A DNA stretch of 64,000 nucleotides from Bacteroidia bacterium. Lineage in GTDB: Bacteria; Bacteroidota; Bacteroidia; Chitinophagales; Saprospiraceae. The notes under the pieces were generated by a model, which saw only the letters and a list, made by a program, of their open reading frames with translations, was not told where the DNA came from and made no database searches. Every line of letters starts with the position of its first letter. Positions within the stretch are counted from its first letter, which is position 1. Location of the stretch: positions 17,855 to 81,854 of the forward strand of contig JAUIEA010000003.1 in assembly GCA_030429045.1 (NCBI GenBank), read 5' to 3'. Both the position numbers and the translations under genes were made by a program. Positions 33,554-45,513 of this stretch are shown here, in pieces.

Positions 33554-35461
33554 ATGAAGAAACTGTACACACTTTTATCCCTTTTGGTCACAACTGGCCT
33601 GCTGGTCGCCCAAACGACCTATACCACCAGTTTTGATTTCACCACGTTCTCCTCCGAGTGGCAACAGGAAACGCTCGCATCCGATGGCGGCTGGTCTCTG
33701 TTCAATCCATTTGCATCCAATGTCGTGGATGCCGGTTTTCCGGCTCCCGGTGGTGACTGGCAATACGCCTATACCGCAGATGGGATGTGTTCTTGTGACA
33801 AGAGCAATGACCTGCTGATCATTCCAGGCACCTATACGGCAGATAAGAACTGGACAGTGGTCTTTGAATATTATTTCCCTGGAACAAGCAATAATGTCAG
33901 CGGTGAACATGTCGCAGTGCTCTATTCCACCAATGGCGGATCGACCTGGGCTTCGCTGTTGCAGCTCGACCCTACCGGTAAAGCCTGGCAGACAGCCGTT
34001 ACCGGGTTGAAGACAGCCAATATCCAGGGCGACATCAAATTTGCTATCCGATACAGTGACAATGGGGGGCAGGGCACTGGCGTTGCCATTGACAACCTCA
34101 GCCTCGTGCCGACAGATGGTGCGAACGTCCACGTGACCGGCAAGATCCAATCTGATACGCCCGTATTTGTGGGCAATGATGTCATGGTTCAGGTCACTGT
34201 GAGCAACCTGGGGGATGAGGACATTTACGGTGTCGAGCTCGGTATCAACATGGAAGGGCAAACGCCCTATACTGAGGAGATCGAGGAGATCGAAATACCA
34301 TCGATGACCACCTTCGAATTTGAGTATCCCGTTTCCATTGATGCTGCCGGCCTGGGCACATTTTCGATGACCATCAATCCATTGGGGGCCACCGACCCGA
34401 TGACTGATGACAATGTTTTCGATGTCTTGATCGCTTCCGTGGATGGCAACTCCATCCAGCATGGCATCCTGGCTGAAGAAGCCACGGGTACCTGGTGTGG
34501 CTGGTGTCCGAGAGGGGCCGTGTTCATGGACCTGATGACGGAGAAATATGACGATTTTATCGGCGTGGCCGTGCATAATGGTGACCCGATGGTCAATACC
34601 ATCTATGACTCCTGGATGGCAGGGTCTGTAGGCGGATATCCCAGTGCCCATGTTCAGCGGAAATTCAAGGATTTCAACCCTTCAGACCTGGAGGAAAACT
34701 ATCTCCTGGCAAAGAATATTGCCCCGCCAGCAGAGTTGTCCCTGGACATCGAATATGATGAGGTGACCCGGATGCTCAATGCGACCGTCACCGGCAACTT
34801 CCTGATGAATGTGATCTCCCACCGCTTCAATCTGATCCTGACGGAAGATGGCGTGACCGGCACCGGACCGGGTTGGTCACAATCCAATTATTACGCCGGC
34901 GGTGGTCAGGGCCCGATGGGCGGATATGAGTCCCTGCCCAATCCGGTCCCCGCATCCATGATGGTTTATGATCATGTCGGTCGTGCGATCGTTGGCGGTG
35001 CCAATGGAGCAGCCGGATCATTGCCCTTCCTGACCAAGACCGGAGAAATGCATTCCTATACCTTCAGCACGGAGGTGGATATGGACTGGGATCCGGAGAA
35101 CATCCACGTGATCGGTGTCCTGCACAATGACCAAAGTAAAAGTATTGCGAATGTCGTATCGACATCGTTGCTGAGCAGTGGTTCATCAGATCTACCTGCA
35201 TTCGTGAATAAACTGGCACTATTCCCGAATCCGGCAACCACCGAAGCCTTCCTTCGCCTTCAACTGCAGCAGGCACAACCCGTCAGTATCCAGATCAATG
35301 ATGTCCTGGGACAGGTGGTCGCCTCCCGCGATTACGGTATCCAGACCGGCGATCAGGTTCTGCCCATCCTGATCCAGGACTGGCCGGCAGGCATGTACCA
35401 GATGATGATCACCATTGGAACAGAGACGGTCTCCCGCCCCCTCGTGGTTGGCAGCCGTTAA
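33554..35461 (+). CDS. Omp28-related surface protein with T9SS C-terminal sorting domain
   Basis: About 635 residues. Signal peptide MKKLYTLLSLLVTTGLLVAQ, an N-terminal choice-of-anchor/MAM-like beta-sandwich (about 20-190), a middle Ig-like segment, then a thioredoxin-like Omp28 domain with GTWCGWCPRG and SVGGYPSAHVQR (about 310-510). The C-terminal type A sorting domain begins LALFPNPATTEAFLRL and directs export by type IX secretion. ATG 33554 starts the signal peptide; the track start is upstream. The CxxC site suggests redox activity at the surface; this is inference. A consensus promoter precedes it. Confidence 0.9.
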   Translation: MKKLYTLLSLLVTTGLLVAQTTYTTSFDFTTFSSEWQQETLASDGGWSLFNPFASNVVDAGFPAPGGDWQYAYTADGMCSCDKSNDLLIIPGTYTADKNWTVVFEYYFPGTSNNVSGEHVAVLYSTNGGSTWASLLQLDPTGKAWQTAVTGLKTANIQGDIKFAIRYSDNGGQGTGVAIDNLSLVPTDGANVHVTGKIQSDTPVFVGNDVMVQVTVSNLGDEDIYGVELGINMEGQTPYTEEIEEIEIPSMTTFEFEYPVSIDAAGLGTFSMTINPLGATDPMTDDNVFDVLIASVDGNSIQHGILAEEATGTWCGWCPRGAVFMDLMTEKYDDFIGVAVHNGDPMVNTIYDSWMAGSVGGYPSAHVQRKFKDFNPSDLEENYLLAKNIAPPAELSLDIEYDEVTRMLNATVTGNFLMNVISHRFNLILTEDGVTGTGPGWSQSNYYAGGGQGPMGGYESLPNPVPASMMVYDHVGRAIVGGANGAAGSLPFLTKTGEMHSYTFSTEVDMDWDPENIHVIGVLHNDQSKSIANVVSTSLLSSGSSDLPAFVNKLALFPNPATTEAFLRLQLQQAQPVSIQINDVLGQVVASRDYGIQTGDQVLPILIQDWPAGMYQMMITIGTETVSRPLVVGSR

Positions 35462-35661
35462 AACAGCGTTAAAGAACTGAAAGATGGTCGGATCGAAGAC
35501 ACTTTGGTGCTCGGCCCGACCATCTTCATTTTATTTTGAACTTTACCCTGTCCGCCTGTGTTAAATATCCGATACCGGGCTTTTACCCAATAATGATTGA
35601 TCGTCGATCTCCTTCTGGAGGCACTGATCAACCCTGTTCTGTTTCCGGCGAGATCCAGGCA

Positions 35662-35715: not shown

Positions 35716-36390
35716 ATGAAGAGATTACTACCACTTTTACTCCTCCTGTTCATCATCACTGCCGTACAGGCTCAGTTTGAGCTGGGTCCTTCTCCTGTGA
35801 TGACCCAATTTGAGGCAAATGAGAATGACATCCATGGTGATGCCACATTGATCTATAACGGCAATACACCGATCACTCTTCGATGGAATATCATCAATAT
35901 TGAGAGTCCCAAAGAATGGACGGCATATGTCTGTCTGGGTATTGCGTGCTATCCTCCCGGCCAATACACCGGTCTAACCACCATTGAGCCAGGTGATACC
36001 ATCGACATCCAGGGACATTTCTTCACCAACCTGGTTTGTGGGACTGGTTCCTATGATCTGACCTTTACCGATGAGACGATCAATCAGGTCGTTGCTTCCG
36101 GTTCATTCCAATTTGAATGCATGGTCAGTTCGACAACCAATCCAACGTCTCCGAATGCCATTTCTATCTTCCCTAACCCGGCCGTGACCTGGTTCTCCAT
36201 CAGTGAAAACGTCCAGGCATCCAGGGTGGAAGTCTACAACATCATTGGCAAGCAGATCGCACAATACCCCTATCAGTCCTCCGGCCGTTACGACATCAGC
36301 AATCTGGCTGGTGGTATGTATCTGGTACGTGTGATTGACAAGCAGGGTCGCTTGGTCACGACCAAACGATTGACGAAAAACACACCCTGA
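35716..36390 (+). CDS. Small T9SS-exported protein, unknown
   Basis: 224 residues. Signal peptide MKRLLPLLLLLFIITAVQAQ, a beta-rich body (about 25-140) with two Cys in VCLGIACYP and others in LVCGTG and FECMVS, then a type A T9SS sorting domain (ISIFPNPAVTWFSISENVQA to the end). The body has an immunoglobulin-like pattern (NTPITLRWNIINIESPKEWT). The track start lies 180 bp upstream and overlaps the promoter; ATG 35716 is chosen. A surface-exposed or secreted protein; family of the body not recognised. Confidence 0.82.
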   Translation: MKRLLPLLLLLFIITAVQAQFELGPSPVMTQFEANENDIHGDATLIYNGNTPITLRWNIINIESPKEWTAYVCLGIACYPPGQYTGLTTIEPGDTIDIQGHFFTNLVCGTGSYDLTFTDETINQVVASGSFQFECMVSSTTNPTSPNAISIFPNPAVTWFSISENVQASRVEVYNIIGKQIAQYPYQSSGRYDISNLAGGMYLVRVIDKQGRLVTTKRLTKNTP

Positions 36391-41703: not shown

Positions 41704-43068
41704 TTAATCATTCCGAATAATCGTCCGGGTCAGAAACTGCCCATCCTGTTCGATCAGGAGGGTGTAGTTTCCTGCAGGTTGATCTCCGATCCGAAAGGTC
41801 TCATCGAAGGTATCCGAGCCTTCCATTTCGACGACCTGGAATGCCCTGCCGGAAGCATCCAACAGGCGCACCTGGATAGGGGCATTAGAACCGGACCGGA
41901 AGCGAACTTGCACTTCATCGCTAGTGGGATTCGGAAAAATGCGCAGATCCTTCAATTCGAGGGTTGCCGTTCCCTGGGGAATTCCATCCATTTCCATCTC
42001 CTCCTCTTCGACTGTGTTGCGTTTTTCTCCTTTTTCACAGCAGCCTGGAGGGCAGCATCCACGAGAGGACATTTTTCCAAGAATCACCTTTTTGTTTTCC
42101 CGAACACCCTTTCTCAGGATGCGCACCTGCGCCTCCTCCCCCGGCTTGTATGTACCGATGGCCTGAATGAGATCCCTGGAAGTTTCGATCTCCACCTCAT
42201 CGATCTGATAGATCACATCCCCTACATTCAAGCCGGCCTCCTCTGCCGCACTTCCAGGGAAGACTTCGATGACACTGACACCTTTTTCCTGATCGTTGAC
42301 CATGACCCCCAACTGTGCTTTCGGCTCACATTCTTTGAGCATAAAATATTGGTGGTTGTCTGGAAATGCTTTTTCCATCCAACTCAATCCCTGGGGTGCC
42401 CGACGACCTAGTTGCGCCTGCATCGTGATCTCCTCCCCATTCCGACGGAGGAGGACGTCAACGGTTTGTTCCGGCTTGTGAGCGCGGATGGCCCTGGCCA
42501 ATTCTGAGGGAGTTGAAACCGTTCGATCGGATATGGCCATGATCACGTCGCCGGATTGCAGGCCAGCCGCTTCCGCCGCTGATCCTTCTATCACTTCCGT
42601 GACCCGGACGCCGTCATCCACAGATTCGGTGACGACACCTAGGAAGGCCTGCTTTGACAGGGGGCGGCCATTCTCCAGGAAGAGGTGATCCGTCCCCTTG
42701 CGCAATTCATATTCCATCTCCGGCCAACGGTCCTGGAGTTCCTGGCTCAGGTCCTCGATCTGGATCCTCAATTCTCCGGGGAGGTCCTTCCAGGGAAATT
42801 CACTATCCCGATCTGTGTCGATTCGCTCTGCACGTTCGATCACCTCGGCATCTGAAGGAGCAGTGATGTCCTCGGATTCGAGCCAGTCTGCATTCTCGGG
42901 CGTATCTTCAGCCTCCTTGATGATGGTAATGGTTCGTTCCTGTCCCTGATCATCTGTCCAGGTCTTAGTGATCGTCACTTGTTTCTTGGCGGGGGCTTCG
43001 GAAGCCTCCTGACCGAAGCCTATCTGGATGAGAAACAGGGCGAATGTGAGAAGTAGAATCTTTTTCAT
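41704..43068 (-). CDS. Exported double-PDZ protein with Cys-rich linker and T9SS-type C-terminal domain
   Basis: 454 residues. Signal peptide MKKILLLTFALFLIQIGFGQ. Acidic region of about 100 residues. PDZ 1 (about 140-220: FLGVVTESVDDGVRVTEVIE, GLQSGDVIMAISD) and PDZ 2 (about 252-330: LGVMVNDQEKGVSVIEVFPG). A Cys-rich linker GCCPPGCCEKG (338-345). Then an acidic stretch and a type A T9SS sorting domain (LRIFPNPTSDEVQVRFRSG). There is no protease domain, unlike HtrA/DegP. Divergent from an RprX/RprY-like operon with a shared 185-bp control region, so it may be a target or a sensor partner of that system. Confidence 0.85.
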   Translation of the reverse strand: MKKILLLTFALFLIQIGFGQEASEAPAKKQVTITKTWTDDQGQERTITIIKEAEDTPENADWLESEDITAPSDAEVIERAERIDTDRDSEFPWKDLPGELRIQIEDLSQELQDRWPEMEYELRKGTDHLFLENGRPLSKQAFLGVVTESVDDGVRVTEVIEGSAAEAAGLQSGDVIMAISDRTVSTPSELARAIRAHKPEQTVDVLLRRNGEEITMQAQLGRRAPQGLSWMEKAFPDNHQYFMLKECEPKAQLGVMVNDQEKGVSVIEVFPGSAAEEAGLNVGDVIYQIDEVEIETSRDLIQAIGTYKPGEEAQVRILRKGVRENKKVILGKMSSRGCCPPGCCEKGEKRNTVEEEEMEMDGIPQGTATLELKDLRIFPNPTSDEVQVRFRSGSNAPIQVRLLDASGRAFQVVEMEGSDTFDETFRIGDQPAGNYTLLIEQDGQFLTRTIIRND

Positions 43069-43113
43069 ATTGCAGAATTATAGTCAGAACAAGATGTCAA
43101 ACAAGTGGACATA

Positions 43114-43121
43114 CAAATCTA
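43114..43121 (-). promoter_or_regulatory. -7 box of the PDZ gene
   Basis: On the minus strand TAGATTTG is an exact TAnnTTTG, 46 bp upstream of the ATG at 43068. No clear -33 element at the standard spacing. Confidence 0.5.
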
Positions 43122-43143
43122 ATTTCTCAAAAACAGCCCCGCG

Positions 43144-43176
43144 GTTAATGAACCGTTAAAAGTCAGTTAAAGTCTG
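43144..43176. promoter_or_regulatory. Three GTTAA direct repeats at 11-bp spacing in the PDZ/two-component control region
   Basis: GTTAA occurs at 43144, 43155 and 43166, exactly 11 bp apart (GTTAATGAACC, GTTAAAAGTCA, GTTAAAGTCTG). Phased 10-11-bp direct repeats are the usual binding arrangement of OmpR/PhoB-type response regulators. It lies between the divergent promoters of the PDZ gene and the rprX/rprY-like operon (-7-like TACATTTA at 43197-43204). Binding by the neighbouring regulator is inferred. Confidence 0.65.
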
Positions 43177-43253
43177 GCTTTCCTCCGATACCCACTTACA
43201 TTTAAGGACGATTGGAGGGAACAATTTCCGTTCCGGGCAGGTTAAACCAACAC

Positions 43254-44777
43254 ATGAAACGTTCTTCCATCTGGATCATTATCGGCCTGATGACCGTAGC
43301 ACTTGCCGGGATCATATCCCTGCAGGCCGACTGGATCATCCGGTCTATCCATTTGAATGAAGAGCAATTTGATAAAAACGTCTTTGCCGCTCTGTTTCGG
43401 GTTGCTGAACGACTGGAAAGCCAGGAGTCCATTGCCGCTCTCGAATCCATGAACGGATTTGAATCCAATTTTCTGGAACAGGAATTCCGCCAGGTGCTGA
43501 AAACAGGTCCCAAGGGGTTGATGGATCTGAACCTGGACAATATGCTGGAGAGCGATCTTCCCAATGATCAACTGGCCGGATTTCTGTTGAACCAGAATTC
43601 CTGTGATTGCGAAAGCTGCCGGCTGGAACGACAGATCAAATATTTTCAGATCATGCGCAAACGGATCCAGCGCAGCCAGCTGGATCTGGCTGACCGGATC
43701 GGTGACCTGGAGGGCATCCACCGGATGTTGCATGAAGAGTTGGAAAATGCGGGCCTGGATGGCAACTTTCACTATGGCATTTATTCAAACGAGACCAACA
43801 GTTTCATCATCAATGACGACCATTATGTCGTCCTGGATCAGAACACCCAACTCTCTCAAGGTGGTGGGATCGACAAGTTGCTGAATTCCAGTTATAAGGT
43901 CTCCCTTTTCCCCGAAGGAAAGAATGTTCCTGGACTATTGATGATCTATTTCCCGACCAAGGTGACGGCCATCTGGGGATCCGTCATCCAGAACCTGATC
44001 GGATCAGTGCTTTTTACCGGCATCATCCTGTTTTGTTTTGCCTATACCATCATGGTGGTGTTCCGGCAGAAAAAAGTCTCCGAGATGAAGAATGACTTCA
44101 TCAACAATATGACCCACGAGTTCAAGACGCCCATCGCCACCATCTCCCTTGCCACAGATTCCATATCCAACCCGCAGGTGACCGGAGACAGCACCAAGGT
44201 GAAGCGTTTCGCGGATATCATCCGCCAGGAGAATCGCCGGATGAATAACCAGGTGGAAAAGGTCCTGCAAATGGCCTTGATCGAGAAACAGGATTTCGAG
44301 ATCAACTGGTCACCCGTCAATCTGCATGAGATCATCGAAGTTGCCATGGAAAACTTCAGCCTGCAGATCGAGCGCCGGAATGGTCAGCTGACCAGCGATC
44401 TGGGTGCGCAACGTCCACTGGTGGAAGGGGACCCCACCCATATTGCCAGTATGATCAACAACCTGCTGGACAATGCCAACAAATATTCTCCCGAAGCGCC
44501 TGAAATCTGTATCCGCACCCGTAATACACCCCTGGGGGTCGAGGTGGCCATCCAGGACAAGGGCCAGGGCATGAACAAGGAGGATCGAAAATTGATATTT
44601 GAAAAATTCTACCGGGTCTCCACTGGTAACTTGCATGATGTGAAAGGGTTTGGACTTGGACTCAGCTATGTCAAGGCAATGATGGATGCCCACAGGGGCC
44701 GGGTAGATGTGGACAGCGAACCTGGGAAAGGAAGTACTTTCACGCTCTTTTTCCCGTTTACCAAACAAGCGGAATAA
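43254..44777 (+). CDS. rprX: Sensor histidine kinase, RprX-like
   Basis: About 507 residues. One N-terminal membrane helix (SIWIIIGLMTVALAGIISLQ), a periplasmic sensor region of about 220 residues, a second helix (LIGSVLFTGIILFCFAYTIM), then DHp and ATPase domains: phospho-acceptor His in NNMTHEFKTPIATISLATDS, N box NLLDNANKYS, G boxes DKGQGM and GLGLSYVKAMM. The sensor region contains CDCESCRLE. ATG 43254 starts the helix; the track TTG is earlier. Directly followed by a response regulator very similar to RprY, hence the name. Signal unknown. Confidence 0.88.
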   Translation: MKRSSIWIIIGLMTVALAGIISLQADWIIRSIHLNEEQFDKNVFAALFRVAERLESQESIAALESMNGFESNFLEQEFRQVLKTGPKGLMDLNLDNMLESDLPNDQLAGFLLNQNSCDCESCRLERQIKYFQIMRKRIQRSQLDLADRIGDLEGIHRMLHEELENAGLDGNFHYGIYSNETNSFIINDDHYVVLDQNTQLSQGGGIDKLLNSSYKVSLFPEGKNVPGLLMIYFPTKVTAIWGSVIQNLIGSVLFTGIILFCFAYTIMVVFRQKKVSEMKNDFINNMTHEFKTPIATISLATDSISNPQVTGDSTKVKRFADIIRQENRRMNNQVEKVLQMALIEKQDFEINWSPVNLHEIIEVAMENFSLQIERRNGQLTSDLGAQRPLVEGDPTHIASMINNLLDNANKYSPEAPEICIRTRNTPLGVEVAIQDKGQGMNKEDRKLIFEKFYRVSTGNLHDVKGFGLGLSYVKAMMDAHRGRVDVDSEPGKGSTFTLFFPFTKQAE

Positions 44778-44787
44778 GTTTAGGACT

Positions 44788-45513
44788 ATGAATACCAACC
44801 CCAAGATCCTTCTTGTCGAGGACGACCAAAATTTTGGTGACGTGCTGAAATCCTACCTGGAGATGCATGACTATGATGTCACCCTGGCTACTGATGGTGT
44901 CTCTGGCCTTGAAAAATACAGGAAGGGAAAATTTGAATTGTGCATTTTCGATGTGATGATGCCGAAGAAGGACGGCTTCACCCTGGCCAGGGAGATCCGT
45001 GAAAAGGATCAGGATATCCCCATTATCTTCCTGACCGCCAAGACCCTGAAAGATGACCTTCTGCAAGGCTTCAAGATCGGGGCCGACGATTATATCACCA
45101 AGCCGTTCAACTCTGAAGAGTTGTTGCTGCGCATCCAGGTCATCCTCAAACGAAGCCTGCCCCGGGAGGATCCGGAGTCCGAGATCCAGGAATTTGATTT
45201 TGGTCATTTCCACTTCAACTTTCCCTTGCGCATTCTCACATTCCGCCATGATGGCCAGGAGGAGAAAAACAAGCTGTCACCCAAGGAAGCGGCCCTGCTG
45301 CGCCTGTTCTGTCTTCGGTTGAACGGTGTCCTGACCCGGACAGAAGCCCTGACCAAGATCTGGGGAGAAGACAACTATTTTACTGCCAGAAGCATGGATG
45401 TCTTTGTCACCAAATTGCGGAAATACCTCAGCCTGGATGAGCGGATCGAGATCGTCAACATTCATGGCAATGGATTCCAATTGCTGGTCATAGACACGGA
45501 AAGCGCCGACTAG
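44788..45513 (+). CDS. rprY: OmpR-family response regulator, RprY-like
   Basis: 241 residues. Receiver: VEDD acidic pair, phospho-acceptor in CIFDVMMPKKDGFTLAREI, conserved Thr in IIFLTAKTLKDDLLQGFKIG and Lys in TKPFNSEEL. The C-terminal winged helix (about 135-235) has the recognition area ARSMDVFVTKLRKYL. The stretch FDVMMPKKDGFTLA and FLTAKTLKDDLLQGFKIGAD closely follow RprY of Bacteroides as I remember it. ATG 44788 lies 10 bp after the kinase stop. Likely binds the 11-bp-spaced repeats upstream of its own operon (inference). Confidence 0.9.
   Translation: MNTNPKILLVEDDQNFGDVLKSYLEMHDYDVTLATDGVSGLEKYRKGKFELCIFDVMMPKKDGFTLAREIREKDQDIPIIFLTAKTLKDDLLQGFKIGADDYITKPFNSEELLLRIQVILKRSLPREDPESEIQEFDFGHFHFNFPLRILTFRHDGQEEKNKLSPKEAALLRLFCLRLNGVLTRTEALTKIWGEDNYFTARSMDVFVTKLRKYLSLDERIEIVNIHGNGFQLLVIDTESAD

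Follow-up and report, generated by a model that had tools for sequence, protein, structure and literature searches.

Closest described systems

In Escherichia coli, cpxP is an exported-protein gene that lies divergent from a two-component operon and shares an intergenic operator with it. The regulator of this system (CpxRA-CpxP) belongs to the OmpR family, uses direct repeats at N5-6 spacing and has degP in its regulon; the sequence read by CpxR is GTAAA-N5-6-GTAAA (PMC9600279). The operators of PhoB/OmpR-type regulators, such as the pho box and the OmpR sites, are built of tandem direct repeats with a 10-11-bp period beside the core promoter. In Bacteroidota, PorXY/SigP represents two-component control linked to T9SS proteins. 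Studies of RprY, the regulator of the RprXY system of Bacteroides, have so far dealt mostly with the P. gingivalis protein, an orphan regulator of oxidative stress; in EMSA, this protein binds its own promoter (PMC3646045). The regulon reported for it in P. gingivalis comprises oxidative stress, Na+-NQR and cytoplasmic chaperones, and repression has been proposed. In the open literature, which was the scope of the search, neither an RprY binding motif nor an RprXY envelope regulon was found. To our knowledge, little is known of envelope-stress regulation in Bacteroidota by comparison with E. coli, and not much on it was found in the open literature.

The locus described in this paper can be compared with each of these systems. 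Its layout resembles that of cpxP-cpxRA but is not homologous to it, so the likeness is one of working and not of membership. The pentamer is a different one, and the regulator reached 114 bits against the CpxR model (cut-off 341) and is not CpxR. No CpxP domain was detected in the divergent protein by Pfam scan; PDZ domains and a Por_Secre_tail were found instead. The OmpR/PhoB-type tandem layout, with direct repeats phased at 10-11 bp and adjoining the core promoter, is present, whereas the sequence differs and the promoter is of the Bacteroidota TAnnTTTG type. PorXY/SigP is a separate system; the box found here stands at genes for T9SS cargo, not at those for the secretion machinery. RprXY and P. 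gingivalis RprY represent the best-scoring family for the regulator and, in Bacteroides, have the kinase adjacent as here.

The intergenic gap and its repeats

The window, which is the whole stretch of 64,000 nucleotides analysed from a contig (JAUIEA010000003.1) of a Bacteroidia bacterium of the Saprospiraceae, contains a gap of 185 bp (43069-43253) between the start codon of a PDZ gene (43068) and the start codon of a kinase gene (43254). The flanking genes diverge, the PDZ gene running leftward (41704-43068) and the kinase-regulator operon rightward (43254-45513). The features of the locus are:

41704 to 43068, minus strand: exported double-PDZ protein of 454 aa, with a signal peptide (by inspection) and a T9SS C-terminal sorting domain
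43114 to 43121, minus strand: TAGATTTG, the -7 box predicted for the divergent PDZ gene; the outer repeat is 22 bp away
43144 to 43170, plus strand: predicted operator of three GTTAA direct repeats 11 bp apart, from sequence, counts and footprinting
43197 to 43204, plus strand: TACATTTA, the -7 box predicted for the kinase-regulator operon, 26 bp past the last repeat and kept in congeners
43254 to 44777, plus strand: RprX-like sensor histidine kinase of 507 aa, with HisKA and HATPase_c domains and an N-terminal membrane helix
44788 to 45513, plus strand: RprY-like OmpR-family response regulator of 241 aa, with receiver and Trans_reg_C domains

In the window sequence the array is gcgGTTAATGAACCGTTAAAAGTCAGTTAAAG, and its GTTAA copies begin at 43144, 43155 and 43166 of the plus strand; the inner pair (43155 and 43166) is the most widely conserved part of the operator. 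The original prediction had placed three GTTAA pentamers at exactly 11-bp spacing between two divergent promoters, with an OmpR-family regulator encoded on one side and an exported double-PDZ protein on the other. All of this was borne out. A Bacteroidota-type -7 box is found on each side of the array, the regulator has the expected domains with RprY as its best family, and the signal peptide, both PDZ domains and the T9SS tail were recognized in the exported protein.

Short pentamers are easily noticed in a gap of this kind, and the repeats might be taken for a chance feature of AT-rich intergenic DNA. The window has a single exact triple, which none of 100 shuffles reproduced, and there is no other in the whole 4.27-Mb genome, where one-mismatch versions are present at two further sites. 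The exact pair GTTAA-N6-GTTAA is more frequent, with 19 copies in the genome compared with 7 of the reversed control pattern (these genome-wide counts cover exact patterns only). Conservation of the repeats lies far above both the shuffles and the gene controls described below, and the footprinting already refutes chance, the probability of which we consider negligible.

The kinase and the response regulator

The best NCBIfam match of the regulator is RprY (NF051850, an equivalog model) with 284.9 bits, and the next family follows 117 bits lower at 167.9. Because RprY is the best family but the score lies below the curated equivalog cut-off of 370, the protein is RprY-like and not a certified RprY, which counts against the main reading developed below. 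Relatives from Bacteroidales and Cytophagales also remain under the cut-off, with 296-326 bits. The RprX-type kinase lies directly upstream of the regulator, and the orthologous pair recurs across the phylum.

No known domain was matched in the extracytoplasmic sensor region of the kinase, and a fold search matched the kinase core only and was uninformative on this region. The Cys cluster CDCESC, to which the original prediction had drawn attention, is present at residues 117-122. Among 35 aligned kinases, CxCxxC is found in 19 and missing from the other 16, and an essential sensor role of the cluster was therefore rejected; it exists in this kinase and is not essential to the circuit.

Conservation upstream of orthologous kinases

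Orthologous kinase loci were taken from relatives of the genome and from GTDB contigs, giving 103 non-redundant upstream regions. Lack of conservation in relatives had been named at the outset as an observation that would speak against the operator, and the result was strongly in its favor: GTTAA-N5/6-GTTAA lies upstream of the rprX-like kinase in 73 of the 103 loci. The N6 form occurs within 300 bp upstream of the kinase in 61 of them, compared with a shuffle mean of 0.09 and a maximum of 2. Spacings between neighbouring repeats are almost all 10 or 11 bp, others being rare, and the reverse orientation was seen at one locus only. Among the carriers are genomes of Saprospiraceae, Pontibacter, Ekhidna, Marinoscillum, Fulvivirga and Bacteroidales. 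In a sample taken across the phylum, the pair precedes the kinase in 12 of 13 fetched loci, four of which are from other classes, and three of these four have four phased repeats. A further sample at family and order level gave 12 of 20 loci. Thus, in the sequences sampled, the box upstream of the kinase is traceable across the phylum Bacteroidota. The tie of the box to the kinase-regulator operon over such great distances is the usual signature of autoregulation. The binding of P. gingivalis RprY to its own promoter in gel shifts (PMC3646045) likewise speaks for the adjacent regulator.

The same comparison bears on which regulator reads the box. The genome encodes 21 matches to OmpR-type regulators, and in relatives there are paralogous histidine kinase genes with GTTAA repeats upstream, mostly at N5, an observation that also counts against the main reading. 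Another OmpR-family regulator, or several with overlapping specificity, might therefore bind the box in place of the adjacent regulator alone. This is quite unlikely, since the box is tied phylum-wide to this particular kinase-regulator operon and the closest paralogous pair in the genome lacks it. That pair, whose regulator is 46% identical, has no GTTAA nearby and was rejected as the owner of the box. Related regulators may share their recognition sequence, and cross-recognition may occur. The paralogous kinase genes with GTTAA-N5/6-GTTAA upstream were observed at three loci (L141, L142 and L160).

Promoter geometry on both sides of the array

A scan of the gap with the sigma-70 consensus detected neither promoter, as expected, because this consensus does not cover promoters of the Bacteroidota type. 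On the kinase side, TAnnTTT starts 26-28 bp after the last (inner) repeat in 49 of the 61 promoters with N6 spacing. No conserved column other than an A adjacent to the repeat was found between the repeat and TAnnTTT in these 61 promoters, which therefore show no evident -33 element. For the PDZ gene, the distance between TAnnTTTG and the outermost repeat is exactly 22 bp at every one of the nine divergent PDZ loci, which are the five congeners plus G007, G026, G014 and L055; in one congener (L008) the distance is counted from a degenerate CTTAA repeat. When the gaps of the five congeners were aligned, the long invariant blocks were the PDZ -7 box block CAAATCTAATTT and the repeats. As both distances are kept, the extra third repeat lengthens the separation of the promoters by one 11-bp turn.

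The fixed spacing on both sides is the strongest evidence that one operator would serve both genes, as the original prediction had suggested. An arrangement in which the box serves the kinase-regulator operon alone, with the PDZ gene a bystander under its own independent promoter, would agree with the retention of the box before the kinase both with and without a neighbouring PDZ gene. It is improbable in view of the exact 22-bp spacing in all nine loci. Moreover, among 22 PDZ relatives that are not linked to the kinase, 5 are preceded by the pair in the same reversed orientation, against 0.055 expected.

The position of the repeats also bears on the sign of regulation. With the same operator and regulator, the effect could be repression, or repression on one side and activation on the other. 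P. gingivalis RprY has been interpreted as an autorepressor, and it is reported mainly as a repressor of an oxidative, sodium and chaperone regulon and not of an envelope regulon, which counts against the main reading as well. In addition, the repeats are reversed relative to the PDZ promoter and end just 22 bp from its -7 box. On the kinase side, however, a distance of 26-28 bp separates the end of the repeats from the downstream -7 box, as is typical of an activator site, with no conserved -33 element seen, and at htrA they are again upstream of the putative core promoter. Repression is accordingly regarded as unlikely, though it deserves consideration. We infer activation because of the position of the repeats relative to the promoter.

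Other genes preceded by the box

The genome has copies of the pair upstream of htrA/degP, skp/OmpH, tamB, a transglycosylase (SLT), a TlpA-like thioredoxin, lipoproteins and exported proteins. All exact pair sites in five species of the genus were compared. Boxes were found in 5 of 5 congeners before htrA, skp, tamB, the lytic transglycosylase, a Cys-rich exported protein, a T9SS-tailed protein and an E1 dehydrogenase; six further promoters carry the box in all five, beside those of htrA and the kinase operon and in addition to that of the E1 dehydrogenase. Four of the five congeners have it before a lipoprotein and a small basic exported protein, and three before TlpA. In two distant congeners (G003 and G004) the N6 interiors have diverged and the GTTAA pairs remain. 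The T9SS-tailed protein is encoded in the window itself:

35457 to 35472, plus strand: GTTAAAACAGCGTTAA, the second box of the window, placed 259 bp ahead of the gene for the T9SS-tailed protein and present in 5 of 5 congeners
35716 to 36390, plus strand: exported 224-aa protein with Por_Secre_tail, a predicted regulon member with the box upstream

Outside the genus, the most persistent of these targets is htrA/degP. The pair precedes it in 23 of 30 family and order orthologs from many genera (shuffle mean 0.085), a further likeness to the Cpx system, while the metabolic control gene lpd from the same window has the pair in 0 of 30 orthologs (shuffle mean 0.025). In the phylum sample, the box was found before htrA in several Bacteroidia families, one of which has three phased repeats at this gene (G080, G084 and G115), and in 0 of 16 genomes of other classes. 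The box of tamB is present in all five species of the genus and in 0 of 20 loci outside it, which counts against the main reading, and that of the transglycosylase in 3 of 25 outside. Both were rejected as ancestral targets, and their links to the box are essentially genus-level.

The occurrence of the box in front of envelope-maintenance genes suggests that the system is an envelope-stress circuit, and the role originally proposed is supported by the boxed htrA, skp, tamB and lytic transglycosylase. A point against is the E1 dehydrogenase, a conserved target that is cytoplasmic. This gene, of the 2-oxo acid dehydrogenase type (L121, L301, L339, L350 and L359), is the only clearly cytoplasmic conserved target; its site in this genome lies at a contig end and was recognized only through the identical box.

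In the htrA promoters (L192-L220), a conserved element AAC(A)-N~15-(G)CGTTTA follows the GTTAA pair and replaces TAnnTTTG. It resembles an ECF-sigma promoter, and joint control by the regulator and an ECF sigma factor may exist at this gene.

Proposed mechanism and its meaning

The repeats, their conservation, the two-sided promoter geometry and the set of box-bearing genes are present in the sequences themselves. The repeats are probably the autoregulatory operator of a two-component system of the RprXY family that controls an envelope-stress regulon. Phosphorylated regulator would sit on successive 10-11-bp repeats, with its OmpR-type winged-helix domains arranged head to tail. From this position just upstream of the core promoter, the bound regulator would activate the kinase-regulator operon by recruiting RNA polymerase, which would amount to positive autoregulation. 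From the same array it would act on the divergent PDZ gene too, and elsewhere on the envelope-maintenance genes that bear the box. We infer that the adjacent regulator is the one that binds, and that the signal is one of envelope stress. The secreted PDZ protein would be a regulated effector and possibly a feedback adaptor similar to CpxP; any feedback on the kinase is suggested by analogy with that system.

What is new here is the predicted operator, regulon and divergent partner, while the regulator family was already known. Since the box is defined, the regulator named and the list of targets, with htrA on it, short, the proposal can be put directly to the test in culturable strains. For RprY, the box further provides a predicted site of binding and suggests what its ancestral role may have been. 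Furthermore, the fixed geometry on two sides offers a clean example of one repeat array that apparently serves two divergent promoters.

Divergent exported proteins in other lineages

The PDZ protein has an N-terminal VTITKxxxDxxGxxxT motif, two PDZ domains and a CCPPGCC linker. Both PDZ domains and the T9SS tail score above cut-off; the sorting domain reached 30.5 bits with PF18962 (cut-off 27) and 28.0 with TIGR04183 (cut-off 23), by which the protein is a predicted T9SS cargo. Related PDZ genes take the position divergent from the kinase in this genus and otherwise only at L020, L024, L028 and L055, and a different PDZ protein is present at L074. The expected recurrence of the kinase, regulator and PDZ adjacency thus held within the genus and a few other Saprospiraceae and was rejected as a general arrangement, though the box before the kinase is phylum-wide.

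In Cytophagales, the position divergent from the kinase is taken by a gene for another exported T9SS-tailed protein without PDZ domains (L086, L088-L090, L093-L100, L107 and L109), and in other classes (L416-L418) by one for a charged exported protein. The comparison of the N-terminal motif of the PDZ protein with these divergent exported proteins gave a profile match of 71% for Cytophagales and of 10% for other classes. These matches are suggestive only, and homology is not claimed.

A wider reading would make RprXY the general envelope-stress system of the Bacteroidota, a separately evolved functional counterpart of Cpx and sigma-E that reads GTTAA-N5/6-GTTAA throughout the phylum. The divergent exported protein would then be a CpxP-like sensor-adaptor, PDZ-bearing in Saprospiraceae and of other designs elsewhere. 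We put this forward tentatively, as a possibility with somewhat less than even support.

The CCPPGCC-type linker of the PDZ protein is kept within the genus. A Cys-rich exported protein (L123) and the TlpA thioredoxin also bear the box, and a thiol or metal signal for the circuit is conceivable.
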